A stretch of DNA of 13,004 nt from Acidobacteriota bacterium (GTDB lineage Bacteria > Acidobacteriota > Terriglobia > UBA7540). The position numbers and the translations under genes are program-made. Within the stretch, counting starts at the first letter, position 1; every line of letters begins with the position of its first letter. Positions 2,224 through 11,658 of the stretch are shown here, in pieces. Location of the stretch: positions 1-13,004 of the forward strand of contig JAKASH010000030.1 in NCBI GenBank assembly GCA_021828225.1, written 5' to 3'. The notes beneath the pieces were generated by a model, which did no database searches, was not told the DNA's origin, and saw nothing but the letters and a program-made list of their open reading frames with translations.

Positions 2224-3383
2224 TCAGGCCATGTTCTGCCTTGCTTGGGCGAATGCGGCCAAAGCGTTGTCCCGGTAGATTCTCTTCAGCAAGGCGTCGG
2301 GCAGGTTGAAGCCGCTCAGGTACCAGTGGTAGCCGTATTGGAAGTGGTAGAAGTGCTCGTCGGCCGTCTCCAGCAACCGGAAAGTGGTGCGGTATATCTC
2401 CTGGTCGTATCCCATGTCTGTCCCGTACAGGATGCGGTCGGGGTGTTTGCCGAAGAACTGCGAGGCAAAGCGGGGGATGCAGGCGGTCTCAGCATAGCGG
2501 GCGCCGATGTCAGCGTAAAGGTTGGGATTGCGGTCCAGCATCTCGCCGAGACGGTCCAGATCGTTGCACTGGTTGGTAAGATGGCAGGCGAAGAATATCG
2601 TATCGGGGTGCTTCCTGACGGCACGCTCCAGGCTTTCGATCAGCGCCTCATGCCCCGTGATGCACGGCTTGACTGTGATCCGCCATGTGTAGGCGTTCAT
2701 CAACCCGTCGTTTGTCTGGTCCATCGGCTGGTACGCCCACGGTGGGTCGGAGACATGAATGCTGACGGGCATCCCCAGCTGTCGGCATTTGTCGAAAAGG
2801 GCGTCGAGCTTGGGATCGCCGGGATGGGCCGGGACCCAGTGGGCCGAATCCCCCAGCTCGCAGCTTCCGTCCCAATGGGGGCCCCGATGCCGCGCTCTTT
2901 GTCGACTAGCTCACCAACTCCGGTGGCACCCAGGCCATGGCATCGTTCCAGGGCCTCCAGCGCTCGCCGCTCGAATCCCGCCGAATCGAACCGCGTGAGG
3001 TCGAATCCGCACCACAGCTCAAACCGGTCCCTGTGCCCGGAAAAACGCTTCCAAATCTCGTCGAGCTTCTCGCCACTTGCCATGGTCAGGACGACGCCCT
3101 TCTCCTGGCCGACAGCGTCCATGTTCCTGACCCATTGGCCAACCTCGCTGGGTGTGCGGGCGTATGGGTGGGTGTGGCAGTCGATGACCGGGTGTTTCGC
3201 CTTGGCTATCCTTATCTCCGGGATTCTGTAAATGGACCTGGGACGGTAATCCTTGAGGAGCAGATTTTCCGGCGTGATCCGTTCCCCGGAACGAGAAATT
3301 CCCCGTGCGGCTTGGCGCCCACGGCTCGGGGGAATTCCGATTGCCGCCCCGGAAAGCATCGCCAGTGATTGCCTTCGGTTCAT
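2224..3383 (-). CDS. Tat-type amidohydrolase family protein, frameshifted
   Basis: Two overlapping frames together encode one amidohydrolase. The first frame starts at ATG 3383 and has a twin-arginine leader (MNRRQSLAML, then a short hydrophobic stretch), suggesting export. It then shows the metal-binding HxH of VIDCHTHPYA (His70, His72). The second frame continues with IHVSD, FACHL and the late Asp of YGTDMGYD, the usual ligand series of metal-dependent hydrolases. The frames join at the C5 tract of the minus strand (2877-2881), near residue 169; one extra C would give an uninterrupted GIGAPHWDGSCELG and a 386-residue protein. As sequenced, translation would derail there. Either the gene is a recent pseudogene or a base was lost in sequencing. 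An in-frame ATG at 3518 exists, but the Tat signal favours 3383. No strong ribosome site is visible. Substrate unknown; the family includes lactonases, decarboxylases and hydrolases. Confidence 0.85.
2877..2881 (-). other. Frameshift site in the amidohydrolase gene
   Basis: The minus strand reads GGGG followed by CCCCC. Amidohydrolase similarity passes from one frame to the next exactly here. Adding one C restores the frame without changing the surrounding residues, which points to a single-base contraction of a homopolymer. Confidence 0.75.
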
Positions 3384-3919
3384 GGTAGTGGCGTGCGGCG
3401 CCTGCAGCGGACCGTTCCCCGGCAGGCTTGCTACCGTCAAAATGCTACGGCGACAGAGGGGAAACACCAGCCGCCGGAATGCCTGCACGATCGGAGGAGA
3501 ACCAGCGGACCGCTTCATGCCGTACTCAGGAGCGATATTACGCCCCGCAGCGTTGGCGTCAAGCGCTTTCTGCGTTGACTACAACGGCAGAAACATCTCT
3601 ATGGTCGTTCCCCCGGCTCCTCAGCGAACTTGGTGGGTTGAGACCAGAGGCCCCGCACCCGACGGTGCAGGGCGAGGTTCTCATGCCGGGATGCTCGGGG
3701 ATGTAGCGCTGGCCTAACCATGGCCGAAACTCTGATTGAGCTACCGGCCTCCCTCGGCACAAGGTGAGGGAGACAGAAAGAGCCATCATGGTCCCCAGGC
3801 GGGATCGAATAGATGTGGGGTGGAACCTGGCCCACCGTTTCATGGCGAAACAGAAACCAGGACCCAGAACCCGATTTTGCTTGACACAACCGGCGACCTT
3901 ATAGATGTGCTACCTGCTG
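3384..3919. other. Intergenic region with GC-rich hairpins, no recognisable gene
   Basis: The 536-base gap lies between the GH106 stop and the amidohydrolase start. The minus-strand open frames here show no family motifs. Two hairpins are visible: 3651-3672 (CCC.GCACC / GGTGC.GGG with one mismatch, loop CGAC) and 3749-3772 (CTCCCTC / GAGGGAG). Neither is followed by a T tract on the minus strand, so I do not call a terminator. Confidence 0.5.
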
Positions 3920-7349: not shown

Positions 7350-8129
7350 AGCTCGTTTACGGAACGTAAGTACCTGTCAATGAACGAGTTTGATGCCCAG
7401 GGTAATCAATCGACGTTTTCAGAATGCGGTGAACACACTAGCACACGAGACTTAATGTCGAAAAGAGAATTGTTTTTTCTTATGAAACTGATCTGACCAC
7501 TTCGCAACTTGAGTGTTGCCGTTATCCGCCGCCGATATATTGCGGTCCGACGAAAGAAGAGTTGTCCCCAGGCTTCAAAAGATGCGACGCTCCATTCTGA
7601 TGCGAGACCTGAGCGCAAGTATGCGGGCGACCGCCCGCCCATTGCGAATGGAAAATAAACTCTTCCTTGTATCGTTTCTGCCCACAAGATAAAGCGGGTC
7701 TGAAAGGGTCATTATGAAAACCTCTTTGAGTGTGCCTATTTGCAAGCCCGCAAACGACATCTCGAACGTATGTTGACCCGACTCGGACGCATCGCTTGAA
7801 TTGGTGCAAGAACGAAATACTTTCCTGCTCAAACTGTAGGTTAACCTCGAATCTCCATCGAGTATAATCCTGACACACCGCCATTATCTTAGCGGCCAAG
7901 GATTACGATGTGTTCGTCACACATGAGGTGGGGTACGGAGCAACAGCATTTCGGCGAATTGTTTCCCGAATAATTGAGATGTAAGGATCGGTTTGAGTTC
8001 TGGTAGTGTTCCTTGGAATTGGAACGCCTTGCCGACCCGAACAATTCATATCCTCTGCGTCAGGAATACCCATTTTTTATCTGAAGACTGCCCCTGATTG
8101 AGCGGCAGGTTTCATCTGAAACCCTGGTC
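7350..8129. other. Non-coding upstream region of the GH106 gene
   Basis: No reading frame here has recognisable motifs; the longest minus-strand frame (7522-7899) looks like noise. The region should hold the GH106 promoter. A weak candidate on the minus strand is TTGCGA followed 17 bases later by CATAAG (about 7475-7510). A perfect palindrome AGGTTAACCT sits at 7838-7847, and a strong hairpin at 7614-7646. Confidence 0.4.
7614..7646. repeat. REP-like hairpin
   Basis: Arms CGCAA...GCGGGC (7614-7628) and GCCCGC...TTGCG (7633-7646) pair around the loop GACC. This gives eleven pairs with an internal loop of 4 by 3 bases. It has no T tract and no adjacent stop codon, so a REP-type palindrome is more likely than a terminator. 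Confidence 0.55.
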
Positions 8130-8269
8130 GACATCATTGGGCAAGAAGAGCTGTTGGTATTCATTGATGAAAAGCAGAGATTGCAAAGTAGTGAGAACGA
8201 TTTCCTTGTCGATCACGGTCTGGATATCGGCAAATAACAGTAAGTCAAAGGTCTTCTTCGCCGTATCCT

Positions 8270-8273
8270 CTAG
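8270..8273. repeat. Target-site duplication CTAG, left copy
   Basis: Left copy of the 4-base palindromic duplication flanking the 115-bp element; its partner is at 8389-8392. Confidence 0.85.
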
Positions 8274-8388
8274 TGTAGTGTCCACGAAATGTCTGGACAA
8301 TGCGCCCACCGCAGAAGCCGCCTTGAGGCGGGCATCTGCCGACCTGAAGGTCGGCGCTACACTGTCCATTTAAATCTCGGACACTACA
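8274..8388. mobile_element. 115-bp MITE-like element with CTAG target duplication
   Basis: Ends TGTAGTGTCC and GGACACTACA are perfect 10-bp inverted repeats, and each end is flanked by CTAG (8270-8273 and 8389-8392). The element interrupts the helicase remnant: deleting it with one CTAG joins HLE and LEDTAKK in frame as the expected LELED. That independently proves the borders and the 4-bp duplication. Inside are two tetraloop hairpins, CCGCC/GGCGG (8318-8331) and GCCGACC/GGTCGGC (8338-8355), and subterminal TGGACA/TGTCCA repeats. It has no coding capacity. Insertion into CTAG palindromes is known for IS481-type transposases, so mobilisation by such an enzyme is a reasonable inference. Confidence 0.88.
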
Positions 8389-8392
8389 CTAG
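8389..8392. repeat. Target-site duplication CTAG, right copy
   Basis: Right copy of the duplication. Keeping only one copy restores the reading frame of the interrupted helicase remnant. Confidence 0.85.
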
Positions 8393-8909
8393 TTCCAGGT
8401 GATCCACCAAGAACAGGACACGACGGGTGTTGCCAGTGGTGAGGTAAAATTTGACAATGGTGGCCGTGAACGTCCTACCGGTTCGGGTAGCTATCTCGAA
8501 CAGAATAACGATCGCGACCGTCACTCATGATCCATTGCAGGGCGCGAATGGCCTTTAACTGATAGGAATGCAAGAAACAAAATTTGTTTGCTTGGATGTA
8601 TCCGGGTTGTTTCCCCTCATTGCGCCACCCCGCCTCGGATTGATAATTCGGGGGTTGCGTCAGCACAATGTAGTATTCACGGATGTGCTCCTTGACAAGG
8701 CGTTTGGGGTTGAGCTTGGGCTGGTGATATCTGACCACCGAATCCGGCGTGGGTGCGCGGGGTTAAAGAACAGCTGTTACTACGCCGCTCGAACCACATA
8801 TTCAGACTTAACGGTTCTGCGCCCTCGAAGACGGTCTCCTCTCGGTAGATGTGCGTGTCTCGATCTGAGTGAGGTAGGTATCGTCGGTCTTGTGGCCCAA
8901 TCGGGGCCC

Positions 8910-8915
8910 GGAGGA
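8910..8915 (+). promoter_or_regulatory. Ribosome binding site of the IS66 orf1 remnant
   Basis: GGAGGA lies 5 bases before the ATG at 8921. The site is intact although the gene behind it is broken. Confidence 0.5.
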
Positions 8916-8920
8916 TACTG

Positions 8921-9300
8921 ATGATTACCCAGAACATCCCCGCCGTTCAGATGACGCTTGAGCAGGCCCGCCAGTAGTTTGAGAGTTGGCGGGGGACTCG
9001 CTCGCGTGTTTCACCCTTCACCCGAAACGCTGCGGACCCTGGCTGTAGTCATGGCCCGGGAACATGGCGTGGATCAAGCCGCGTGATTCCTTGTGCAGAA
9101 CTATACGCAGGCGAACAAACGCGAGGATGGAGCATGTAGCTCGGCTCGTTCCCATAGGCCCTCGGCGACATTTGTTGATCTGGTGCTGTTTGCTCCTTCA
9201 CCTTGGACCATCCAGTTGCAACATATGACCGCGCCTGCAAGGATATCCACCTACCCAATACCCGGGGGCAGTCGACCGATGGCGCTGGCCAAAGGTCTAT
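8921..9300 (+). pseudogene. IS66-family orf1 (TnpA-like) remnant
   Basis: From ATG 8921 the frame reads MITQNIP, then MTLEQARQ, a TAG stop (8975-8977) and FESWRGTR. After a frameshift near 9008 it continues as ETLRTLAVVMAREHGVDQAA, a TGA (9084-9086), and LVQNYTQANKRED. This follows the pattern of the small helix-turn-helix proteins encoded first in many IS66 elements: a QxFESWRxTR start, an ALAREHGV helix, then LNYxxLKKRVE. Two stops and one frameshift make it non-functional. The assignment rests on recalled family patterns. Confidence 0.65.
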
Positions 9301-9310
9301 GTGGTCGACG

Positions 9311-9460
9311 GTGAAGATGAGTCCGCAGATGCGCATCTTGGCGGCGGTGGAAGCCGTGGATTTTCGCAATGGAATTGATGGTTTGCCGCAGACTCACGAG
9401 CAGCGCACTGTTGATGCAGGAAGAACCGCTGGGCAGAAGATCATTGATAGTCGCTACCCG
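9311..9460 (+). pseudogene. IS66-family tnpB (Orf2) N-terminal remnant
   Basis: The frame from about 9311 reads MSPQMRILAAVEAVDFRNG followed by IDGL, the start of IS66 TnpB proteins (usually ending VDFRKGIDGL). After IDGLPQ the similarity fades, perhaps through another frameshift (EEPLGRR in a neighbouring frame recalls the usual DPxxG region). About two thirds of the usual ~115 residues are missing. It cannot support transposition. Confidence 0.7.
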
Positions 9461-9471
9461 ACTTCCAGCCG

Positions 9472-11658
9472 TTACTCATAGTCCAGCAACACCATTGACA
9501 TCATTTCAAAAGGTTGGACTTGAAACTCCACATAAGGCCAAACCCTCTTAAATGGGACCGGCCTGCCATCTGGAACCATGCTTACCCTGGACGCTTTTTG
9601 GCCGGACGGCACCTTCACCCGGACGGTGGCACTAATCGCAATGGGTGAAAGTTTCCATTCCATGTTGAGAAGGCTGACCACCAAGCGGCGCTTTTGAGGC
9701 TGGTGGAAAAGGGTCATCTCAACCGATTCATGCGTGTCGACCTGGAAATGATAGGGCCCCGGCAACACACGATGCAGGAGGGAGAGTACAACTTTGGAAT
9801 TCACGGCGTTGTCGCCGGACTCTATGGGCGCAGCCATCCAAATGGCCTTCCCTCGACCGAATGAATGGACTACGATGGCCGGATTGGTTCCGGGTGTGGG
9901 GGCAGGTGGATTGTTCCAGATCTGGGCAAAGCGAACATTGAGGCAGTTGCCGATTTGAGGGTCTACGAAGGGCAATGTCACCGTTGCCAGCACTTGTGTG
10001 CCCGAATGTGCTTCGCCTTGGACCATCGGCCCAGGAAAACTGAGAGCATCCTGGGGCCAGATGGCCTTTTTCATTTCACTGTCCCGAGGGGAAAAGTAAG
10101 TCCACGTGGTTCCCAGAGTTCCTTTGTAAGTTACCCCCAGAACATCTTCCAACAGGAACCTTGGACCACCTGAACCGAGGCGGTTTATCGATGAAGTCCC
10201 GGAAGCATACAAGACGCCTCCGTTCTTCACAAAATTACGAAAGCGGTCGGCTTGCTCCTCCGTCATCTCCAGCACGCTAGGCATAATCACCGCGCGAAAG
10301 ATGTCCAGCTGGTCCAGGTTGACATTGGTTACCACGCCATAAGGAATATGGGCCTGGCGCAGGATCCGCGCTGCCCCCACCACACCGCCCAGATGGGGTG
10401 GTTGGCCTCCTTTCCGCTTGTCCACGCGGACACCGTTGTCGGCGGGGTCGTACATCGATTCTTTGTCATAGTAGATTGCCACGTCGGCAAGCATTTCGCC
10501 CCCGAGGAAAGGCTCGTATGGGGCCCGCCTGGCGTTCACTTTTCCGAGGAAATCGTAAACATCAGGATTCAGTCTTCCTTCAGGGCTGATCGAGTCGATG
10601 GTAAGGTTGGCCGCCGAATGAAGGGTAGCGACGTAAGTGGAATCCAATAAGTCGTTAAATGGTTTCGTGGTTTCGAAATCGTGGAGATTCATTGTGCGCG
10701 ACGTCATGAACTCAAAGGGACGCATTTGCGTCAGCCCGTAATAAGCCTTGCAGACCAATGAATATTGTGTTGGTCCGCCGTAGAAATCGCCGCCCAGGTA
10801 GTCGCAGGCATTCCTTAGTTGGAGCGGGACGCCGAGCCTCCAATCGGCAAAGATGGTCGAATACTGGTGATTGACAGTGATCGGACGAACGCCCTTGATG
10901 GTCTTTGTGACGAGCATGGCAAATTCAAGAAGCCACTGCTCCCTCGCTTTTTGAAATAGCCTCCAGGTTGCATCGTTCCAGTTGATGATGCGTGGCGGCT
11001 CTGCCTGGTGTTCCTTTCGGAATCGTGCGGTGCAGTGGGGGCAGTAACAGACATAGGGCCAGAAAGTCATATCCAGAAATATGCCGTCGAATTCATAGTT
11101 GTGCACCAATTCGTGCAGTTCAGATAGAGCCTGCTTCCGGTAAGGGGAATTAGGGCAGACTTCCCCCGGGCGCCCTCTGAGAATCGTGTCGTACCCACTC
11201 TCGGGCAATACCCGCCAATCGGGATGGTGGTCAAAATTCCAGATGTCGTAAATTAGGCTATAGTAAGCAACCGTGCGCAGATTGTGGCGTCGGCATTCCT
11301 CCATGACCTCGCCGAAGTAGTCGCGCCCCTTCATATTGGCGTGCACGGGACCAACCTTGCTCTGCCAAAGGCACAATCCCACATGCGACTTTGCATATTG
11401 CATGACCGATTCAAAGCCCGCCTGTGCAATCGTGCGTACGTAGCGATCGGCGTCAAAGTCCGCCAGCAGGCCCAGGTCCCAGTCGGGCACGTGAGTATCC
11501 ACCAGGAGACGGCGATAGGCCCCCTTGGGCCATGCAGCAGGATGGTTCCGGCTGTCTGCTGTTTGCTGGTTGGAGCCCTCAAGCGCTTTCGACCACGTCC
11601 CTGTCCCCATGCCGAGCGTCGCTCCGCCGATGAGAGCGTTAAAGGTTCGTCGATCCAT
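9472..11658 (-). CDS. Tat-type GHL6-like putative glycoside hydrolase with beta-galactosidase-trimerisation/GATase-like region
   Basis: A 728-residue protein beginning with a twin-arginine leader (MDRRTFNALIGGATLGMG), so probably exported folded. Residues about 50-390 resemble the hypothetical glycosyl hydrolase 6 (GHL6) TIM barrel: YAKSHVGLCLW, YDIWNFDHHPDW, CPNSPYR, then FDGIFLDMTFW with Asp196 a candidate active-site acid, followed by CYCPHC (205-209). Residues about 400-620 look like the GATase-like beta-galactosidase trimerisation domain of GH42 relatives (DVAIYYDKES, then VKNGGVLYASGTSS). The last ~100 residues form a beta-rich domain. Family activity is not established to my knowledge; cleavage of a galactoside, fucoside or similar is only a guess. 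The ATG has GGAGG five bases upstream. It begins 102 bases after the GH78 stop, suggesting one operon. The stop codon lies at the edge of the IS66 remnant. Confidence 0.85.
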   Translation of the reverse strand: MDRRTFNALIGGATLGMGTGTWSKALEGSNQQTADSRNHPAAWPKGAYRRLLVDTHVPDWDLGLLADFDADRYVRTIAQAGFESVMQYAKSHVGLCLWQSKVGPVHANMKGRDYFGEVMEECRRHNLRTVAYYSLIYDIWNFDHHPDWRVLPESGYDTILRGRPGEVCPNSPYRKQALSELHELVHNYEFDGIFLDMTFWPYVCYCPHCTARFRKEHQAEPPRIINWNDATWRLFQKAREQWLLEFAMLVTKTIKGVRPITVNHQYSTIFADWRLGVPLQLRNACDYLGGDFYGGPTQYSLVCKAYYGLTQMRPFEFMTSRTMNLHDFETTKPFNDLLDSTYVATLHSAANLTIDSISPEGRLNPDVYDFLGKVNARRAPYEPFLGGEMLADVAIYYDKESMYDPADNGVRVDKRKGGQPPHLGGVVGAARILRQAHIPYGVVTNVNLDQLDIFRAVIMPSVLEMTEEQADRFRNFVKNGGVLYASGTSSINRLGSGGPRFLLEDVLGVTYKGTLGTTWTYFSPRDSEMKKAIWPQDALSFPGPMVQGEAHSGTQVLATVTLPFVDPQIGNCLNVRFAQIWNNPPAPTPGTNPAIVVHSFGRGKAIWMAAPIESGDNAVNSKVVLSLLHRVLPGPYHFQVDTHESVEMTLFHQPQKRRLVVSLLNMEWKLSPIAISATVRVKVPSGQKASRVSMVPDGRPVPFKRVWPYVEFQVQPFEMMSMVLLDYE

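Follow-up and report, generated by a model that had tools for sequence, protein, structure and literature searches.

A 115-bp element that interrupts a decayed restriction gene in the analysed stretch of Acidobacteriota DNA (13,004 nucleotides, hereafter the window) is very probably a non-autonomous MITE of the IS630/Tc1-mariner group, mobilised in trans into a CTAG site and carrying a captured GTAG-REP dimer as its core. Since both the IS630-type ends and the GTAG-REP core are shared with relatives in other genomes, the element is best read as an IS630-type MITE built around a REP dimer.

The element occupies positions 8274..8388, is non-coding, and is bordered by CTAG on the left (8270..8273) and on the right (8389..8392), the whole lying inside the remnant of an HsdR gene. 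Direct reading and arm comparison define a left terminal inverted repeat, TGTAGTGTCC, at 8274..8283 on the plus strand, and a right one on the minus strand at 8379..8388, which reads GGACACTACA. The two arms match perfectly over 10 bp, or 14 bp counting CTAG, and are 76% complementary over 33 bp. Each contains a subterminal repeat common to full-length IS630 relatives, namely TGGACA at 8294..8299 (plus strand) and its minus-strand counterpart at 8363..8368 (TGTCCA on the plus strand). The perfect 14-bp inverted pair is the single case in the window at a spacing of 40-400 bp. A chance palindrome was rejected because any such pair appeared in just 1 of 200 dinucleotide shuffles. Folding as DNA gave a z-score of -4.4 against shuffles, and folding as RNA gave -5.7 and -6.8 on the two strands; in each comparison, none of the 200 shuffles folded as well. 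Two open reading frames overlap the element, and the one scanned (8112-8369, minus strand) matches no Pfam family. An Rfam search of positions 7400-9500 returned one hit, at E 0.77, whose 18.5 bits fall short of the gathering score of 40. A short, non-coding sequence with perfect terminal inverted repeats and a TA-containing target on both sides (CTAG/CTAG) has the makeup of a MITE. The initial annotation had described the perfect 10-bp inverted ends, the CTAG flanks, the 115-bp non-coding body, and two internal tetraloop hairpins; the first three are read directly in the letters, and both hairpins are present (8318-8331 and 8338-8355, with loops of 4 nt).

The interrupted gene provides evidence of insertion. 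The remnant (8127..8753, minus strand) belongs to HsdR, the helicase subunit of type I restriction systems, as indicated by Pfam and NCBIfam profiles and by alignment to approximately residues 145-323 of an intact HsdR frame (L164); it aligns similarly to the five other intact HsdRs tried. These acidobacterial comparison sequences were the best six among eight loci fetched, from 11 matching genomes out of 297. Deletion of 119 bp (the 115-bp element plus one CTAG), a length that is not a multiple of three, yields a single frame in which FLVDHLE runs directly into LEDTAKK. When the joined reading, FLVDHLELEDTAKKTF, is aligned with FLVDRLELEEQARKAF and its counterparts in the six best relatives (L164-L169), no gap falls at the junction. 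Profile scores rise in parallel. Against NCBIfam NF046051 (EcoAI-type HsdR), the joined 96 residues reach an E-value of 5.1e-6, compared with 1.5e-3 and no match for the halves; these scores lie far under the 550-bit cut-off, as expected of a fragment. Against Pfam ResIII, the joined piece scores 4.8e-5 and passes the cut-off, while the halves give 3.4e-3 (under the cut-off) and no match. At the level of the sequence, the join and the rising scores together prove an insertion into the hsdR frame, in line with the frame restoration that had been proposed. The further proposal that this frame fixes the element ends to the base was overstated: with CTAG on both sides, any register within it gives the identical join, so the frame test cannot set the exact borders. 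The gene shows further decay: a stop codon and a shift of frame both lie between 8475 and the element, nine consecutive residues are missing, and the ATP-binding TGKT reads TGRT. A search of plasmid DNA with this region found weak matches (55 records) in the hsdR flank and none in the element; the 20 matches listed all have E 0.06, 19 of them in genes annotated as DEAD/DEAH helicases and one without annotation. A PDB search of the joined piece returned one designed protein (E 0.0038), which was judged irrelevant.

The same ends and target recur in other genomes. Scanning genome contigs for the end pair at a separation of 82-110 bp retrieved 22 stretches from records labelled Acidobacteria or Acidobacteriota, Bryobacterales, Acidiferrobacteraceae, Betaproteobacteria, and Planctomycetota, as well as from GL140_6_metabat_212, which accounts for 12 of the 22. 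Their interiors vary among genomes and their ends recur. CTAG stands on both sides in 15 of the 22 and is lacking in five (L007, L010, L011, L015, and L020); the other two (L014 and L018) have one flank truncated where the contig or locus stops. L011 was set aside, as it has the end pair without CTAG and looks like a different palindrome. Overall, these ends with CTAG delimit mini-elements in Acidobacteriota and Pseudomonadota and insertion sequences of about 1.2 kb in Acidobacteriota, which supports the earlier suggestion of a MITE-like insertion at a CTAG target. Pooling of the fetched loci, with the window left out, gave 34 non-redundant elements, and 28 of them (16 shorter than 300 bp, 12 longer) have CTAG/CTAG flanks. 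Of the other six, two have an identical non-CTAG tetranucleotide, one has TA on both sides, and three have neither. The count was restricted to elements whose 10-bp ends are identical and begin with TGTAGTG and for which 12 bp of flank could be read, those with unlike ends or short flanks being dropped, and several loci were fetched for carrying CTAG; it therefore speaks for constancy of the target and not for its frequency.

The initial annotation had proposed a search for further copies of the 115-bp sequence, and none of full length was found in sets of 396 and 398 acidobacterial genomes, with the two best candidates scored per genome. Parts of the window stretch matched seven of the 398 genomes, all from the family to which G156 belongs; among the sampled genomes, G156 best matches the GH106 protein of the window. 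Exact-pattern searches of viral contigs found neither the end pair nor the left end of the window element. One candidate empty site was inspected in G001, where a repeat in L018 resembles the joined flanks of L006 (77%); because CTAG is absent from the corresponding position, this repeat is uninformative as an empty-site paralogue. In the same genome, L006, L012, and L018 hold MITE copies oppositely oriented in one flanking repeat (attatggcc.CTAGaatacgg), as if one and the same CTAG within a repeat family had received two insertions. G157 has nine matches to TAGTGTAGTGTCT on nine contigs, three of them no more than about 110 bases from where the contig begins, a pattern that suggests a multi-copy element with slightly different ends.

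Full-length elements identify the family of the mover. A 1203-bp element (counting both CTAGs) from a Baikal Bryobacterales genome (L038 in G010) has the same ends as the window element, and its transposase contains DDE_3 and HTH_32 domains according to Pfam. Insertion sequences ending in TGTAGTGTCC with CTAG flanks, as the initial annotation had foreseen, therefore exist. The mover it had named was an IS481-like transposase. Some IS481 elements do have TGT...ACA ends and a target with a CTAG core, and the IS481 model NF033577 gives a weak match. Even so, both full-length transposases scanned pass the IS630 model (L038, 271.6 bits; L136, 266.4 bits; cut-off 100) and fail that of IS481 (52.5 and 53.9 bits; cut-off 224), which, together with the DDE_3 and HTH_32 domains of L038, makes an IS481-family mover extremely improbable. 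The assignment is accordingly corrected from IS481 to IS630. L136 is one of two copies in G134 that have the same ends and encode 75-76% identical transposases. Three genomes from the family of G156 each contribute an element of about 1.2 kb with both ends (L209, L211, and L212), a TGGACA- or TAGACA-type subterminal repeat, and a transposase 73-75% identical to that of G010; in the same family, L207 and L210 have one end and a transposase match, and L208 and L062 have neither. With L038, L136, and the G156-family elements, the window element thus shares its ends with full-length IS630 elements, as a MITE would. Across 52 examined loci, 11 have TGTAGTG ends with CTAG on both sides and many others are fragments or gave no ends, the end-finder having credited matching or TA-containing flanks. 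Against this mover, searches for a G010-type transposase found no match in G001, which holds 11 full copies of its own MITE and may be incomplete as a genome, nor in G003. Shortened elements with the G010 IS630 ends also occur in that genome, including a 110-bp MITE (L022:488-597), a 250-bp element (L023:1505-1754), and an 819-bp truncated copy with transposase pieces (L048:1501-2319).

Related transposases extend to plasmids, where 555 records match. In the 29 taken for end analysis from the 60 listed, an identical tetranucleotide flanks 23 (22 CTAG and one TTAG), with a finder that favoured TA-flanked ends. For L176, L188, and L223, a different register places CTAG on both sides; in L185 the ends are imperfect and CTAG lies beyond them; and L220 and L226 have no credible ends. 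The plasmid ends mostly differ from those of the window element, starting with TGT or TGG and continuing with different letters. In viral contigs, three loci encode distantly related IS630 transposases (37-51% identity).

The length of the target duplication is less clearly defined. At CTAG sites, a 4-bp duplication and a TA duplication by an element ending in G...C look alike, so deviant sites decide. Four insertions have equal non-CTAG flanks: L015/L071 (GTAG, with an element 100% identical to its sisters), L020 (CTAA), L172/L174 (CTAA, one insertion in two records), and L178 (TTAG). The ends of L172/L174 and L178 are unlike those of the window element, and these loci came from end-finders that credited matching or TA-containing flanks. 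Unequal flanks were recorded in 12 cases: L010 (ATAG/GTAG), L094 and L095 (TTAG/CTAG), L088 (CTAG/CCAG), L007 (CTCG/CCAG), L092 (CTAC/CTAG), L098 (GCCG/CTCG), L103 (CTTG/CTAG), L154 (CTAG/TTAG), L162 (CCAG/CTAG), L209 (CTAG/CTAA), and L023 (CTAG/CCAG). Most of these pairs differ by one base and sit in diverged copies, and the pairs, at least 12 in number, do not decide the question. Judged from the four equal non-CTAG insertions, duplication of four bases appears favoured over TA alone, although not firmly. The same MITE could instead measure 117 bp, counting the outermost G and C as its own and leaving the outer C and G to the target CTAG, with TA alone duplicated. IS630 itself is reportedly partial to TA within CTAG, and L094, L095, and L209 would then need no mutation. 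Such a duplication is described for the IS630-family element ISY100, which duplicates TA only (PMC2170065). Nevertheless, each of the four independent equal insertions would require a coincidental change of the last base of the element, and we consider the 117-bp version unlikely.

The interior of the element has a separate identity. Its left half contains a 5-bp hairpin, CCGCC-TTGA-GGCGG (8318..8331), preceded on the plus strand by GCAG (8311..8314), possibly a degenerate GTAG tag according to alignment with a related MITE (L005) and with free REP dimers. The right half contains a 7-bp hairpin, GCCGACC-TGAA-GGTCGGC (8338..8355), followed by a GTAG tag on the minus strand (8357..8360; CTAC on the plus strand). 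Read on the minus strand, the interior runs GTAG-C-GCCGACC-TTCA-GGTCGGC, then four bases and a second hairpin. No other perfect hairpin in the window carries a GTAG tag (stem 7-10, loop 3-8, 0-2 bases from the tag). The right half thus shows the GTAG beside a short G+C-rich hairpin that characterises REPs, and the left half a degenerate version of it. GTAG-tagged REPs and REPINs are thought to be moved by RAYT transposases.

The right-hand palindrome is also found outside the element, in other acidobacterial genomes. When the element was compared by BLAST with 396 genomes, scoring two candidates in each, 13 short matches emerged in nine genomes, 10 of them over this hairpin. Its exact core occurs 10 times in nine of the 13 loci, with CTAC two bases after it in all 10, and no IS630-type end lies within 50-60 bp on either side of any of them. 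The layout of the window element is reproduced by the L005 MITE of G004 and G006. G004 has 27 matches to this MITE, 20 of which span 92 or more of its 114 bases, and G006 has one full match. The interiors of the window element and L005 align better than all 300 shuffles (z 4.5). When nine MITEs were aligned with the window interior in both orientations, L005 and L010, which form one family, reached 4.5 and the other seven at most 1.2. G004 also contains GTAG...CTAC dimers without MITE ends, and the core of its MITE is 100% identical over 24 bp to these free REPs. Judging by these likenesses, the internal hairpins form a GTAG-tagged, REPIN-like REP dimer, a separate repeat family that the initial annotation had missed.

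RAYT-type genes accompany these repeats in places. In G004, one Y1_Tnp match (C362:658-888) lies between REP matches at 286-309 and 1290-1345, and another (C85:177-407) adjoins a REP match at 529-552. In G334, a copy of the window core lies about 0.1 kb from the end of a 161-residue open frame that has a Y1_Tnp match of 24 bits (cut-off 23). PF01797 matches are found in all five REP-bearing relatives and also in five of 14 control genomes, so adjacency to a REP, and not mere presence, constitutes the RAYT evidence. The right MITE end joined to a REP was detected in one genome out of 366, with 14 matches in G004, which makes the arrangement rare in that sample.

The resemblance could in principle be coincidental, the hairpins of a MITE merely happening to look like GTAG-REPs. 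MITEs often contain hairpins, the tag of the left hairpin is merely degenerate (GCAG), and the tag of the right one stands one base from its core in the window and two bases away in the other loci. Against this, the tagged core recurs without MITE ends, in places beside RAYT-type genes, the MITE core in G004 matches its free REPs, and the window and L005 interiors exceed every shuffle; coincidence therefore seems distinctly improbable. The opposite simplification, a plain REP/BIME or terminator-like hairpin cluster with no transposon involved, would account for the GTAG-REP dimer. However, features beyond the REP, namely the 10-bp ends, the CTAG flanks, and the subterminal repeats, agree with full-length IS630 elements, and the HsdR frame is broken at the IS630-type ends and not at the REP borders, leaving this reading with next to no probability. 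Nested palindromes were also observed in G002 (Acidiferrobacteraceae), where IS630-ended MITEs (L029:1501-1680, L036:1501-1656, L041, L046, and L003:1335-1444) each enclose a GGTTCCCACGC...GCGTGGGAACC palindrome or a pair of them. A single MITE end is seen in L041 and L046, where the border of the palindrome seems to replace the other. These elements suggest a second, unrelated palindrome nested in an IS630-ended MITE and a recurring nesting habit.

Comparable systems place the IS630-type MITE among known kinds of element. RUP of Streptococcus pneumoniae is a 107-bp non-coding MITE proposed to be mobilised by IS630-Spn1 (PMC2229807); like the window element, it shares its ends with an IS630-family element and uses a TA-containing target. 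It differs in its host phylum, and the part of that source available to us mentions no REP core. ISY100, IS630, L038, and L136 likewise use TA or CTAG, L038 and L136 with one transposase family, whereas the window element has no gene. MITEPsy1 of Pseudomonas syringae is 100 bp long and inserts into CTAG or YTAA with duplication of the tetranucleotide, but it has GGAAGGTC... ends and is suggested to derive from ISPsy2, of a family marked 'IS5?' (PMC3189936). In BrickBuilt of Porphyromonas gingivalis, another repeat family is nested in a MITE, although the nested repeat is a tandem minisatellite and not a REP palindrome (PMC4596501). GTAG-REPs and RAYTs are a known pair, listed in Proteobacteria, Cyanobacteria, Chloroflexi, and PVC, with acidobacterial RAYTs mentioned (PMC3733652). 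The window core resembles them in its tag, its paired short G+C-rich hairpins, and the RAYT-type genes nearby in relatives, and it differs in being enclosed by IS630-type ends, with a CTAG site as the boundary. The kind of element is therefore already known from RUP with IS630-Spn1; what is new is this MITE with its unusual nested REP. The open-licence literature, consulted mostly as titles and abstract starts, held no description of these ends with a nested REP, in agreement with the earlier statement that the MITE was undescribed.

The surrounding window encodes a sugar-use cluster with a Gfo/Idh oxidoreductase, a xylose-isomerase-like protein, an amidohydrolase, GH106, GHL6, and a bacterial alpha-L-rhamnosidase. 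The GH106 protein has matches in 38 of 199 sampled genomes from the phylum of G010 (the Bryobacterales record), at best 65%, which points to a source that is probably acidobacterial and somewhat distant from all genomes sampled. The amidohydrolase gene (2224-3518, minus strand) is spread over two overlapping frames, 2224-2772 (Amidohydro_2) and 2700-3518 (no Pfam match); a frameshift or sequencing error appears to have split it.

The following sequence of events would produce the observed arrangement. A full-length IS630-type element elsewhere in the genome would supply transposase in trans. This enzyme would bind the TGTAGTGTCC...TGGACA ends of the MITE, cut it out, and paste it into a CTAG, so that each side of the insert carries the site. 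In this way one insertion would have struck hsdR, now a fragment. The middle of the MITE would represent a GTAG-tagged REP dimer apparently captured between IS630 ends, not a shrunken transposase, and the REP may have entered through RAYT action or recombination. A more speculative extension is that IS630-type MITEs act as carriers of RAYT-type REP dimers. Two sets of transposition signals would then be nested in one small element, the outer ends serving a DDE transposase and the inner GTAG-REP an HUH (RAYT) enzyme, which would let REPs reach CTAG sites otherwise inaccessible to them. We regard this as a doubtful but conceivable outcome.

The interrupted reading frame and constant target make the window element a clean case for tests of trans-mobilisation, and elements of its type bear on whether two or four bases are duplicated in this branch of IS630. 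Small bacterial repeats have been explained separately as MITEs moved by IS630 and as REPs moved by RAYT. An element combining both may offer REPs a way to spread outside the reach of RAYT activity.
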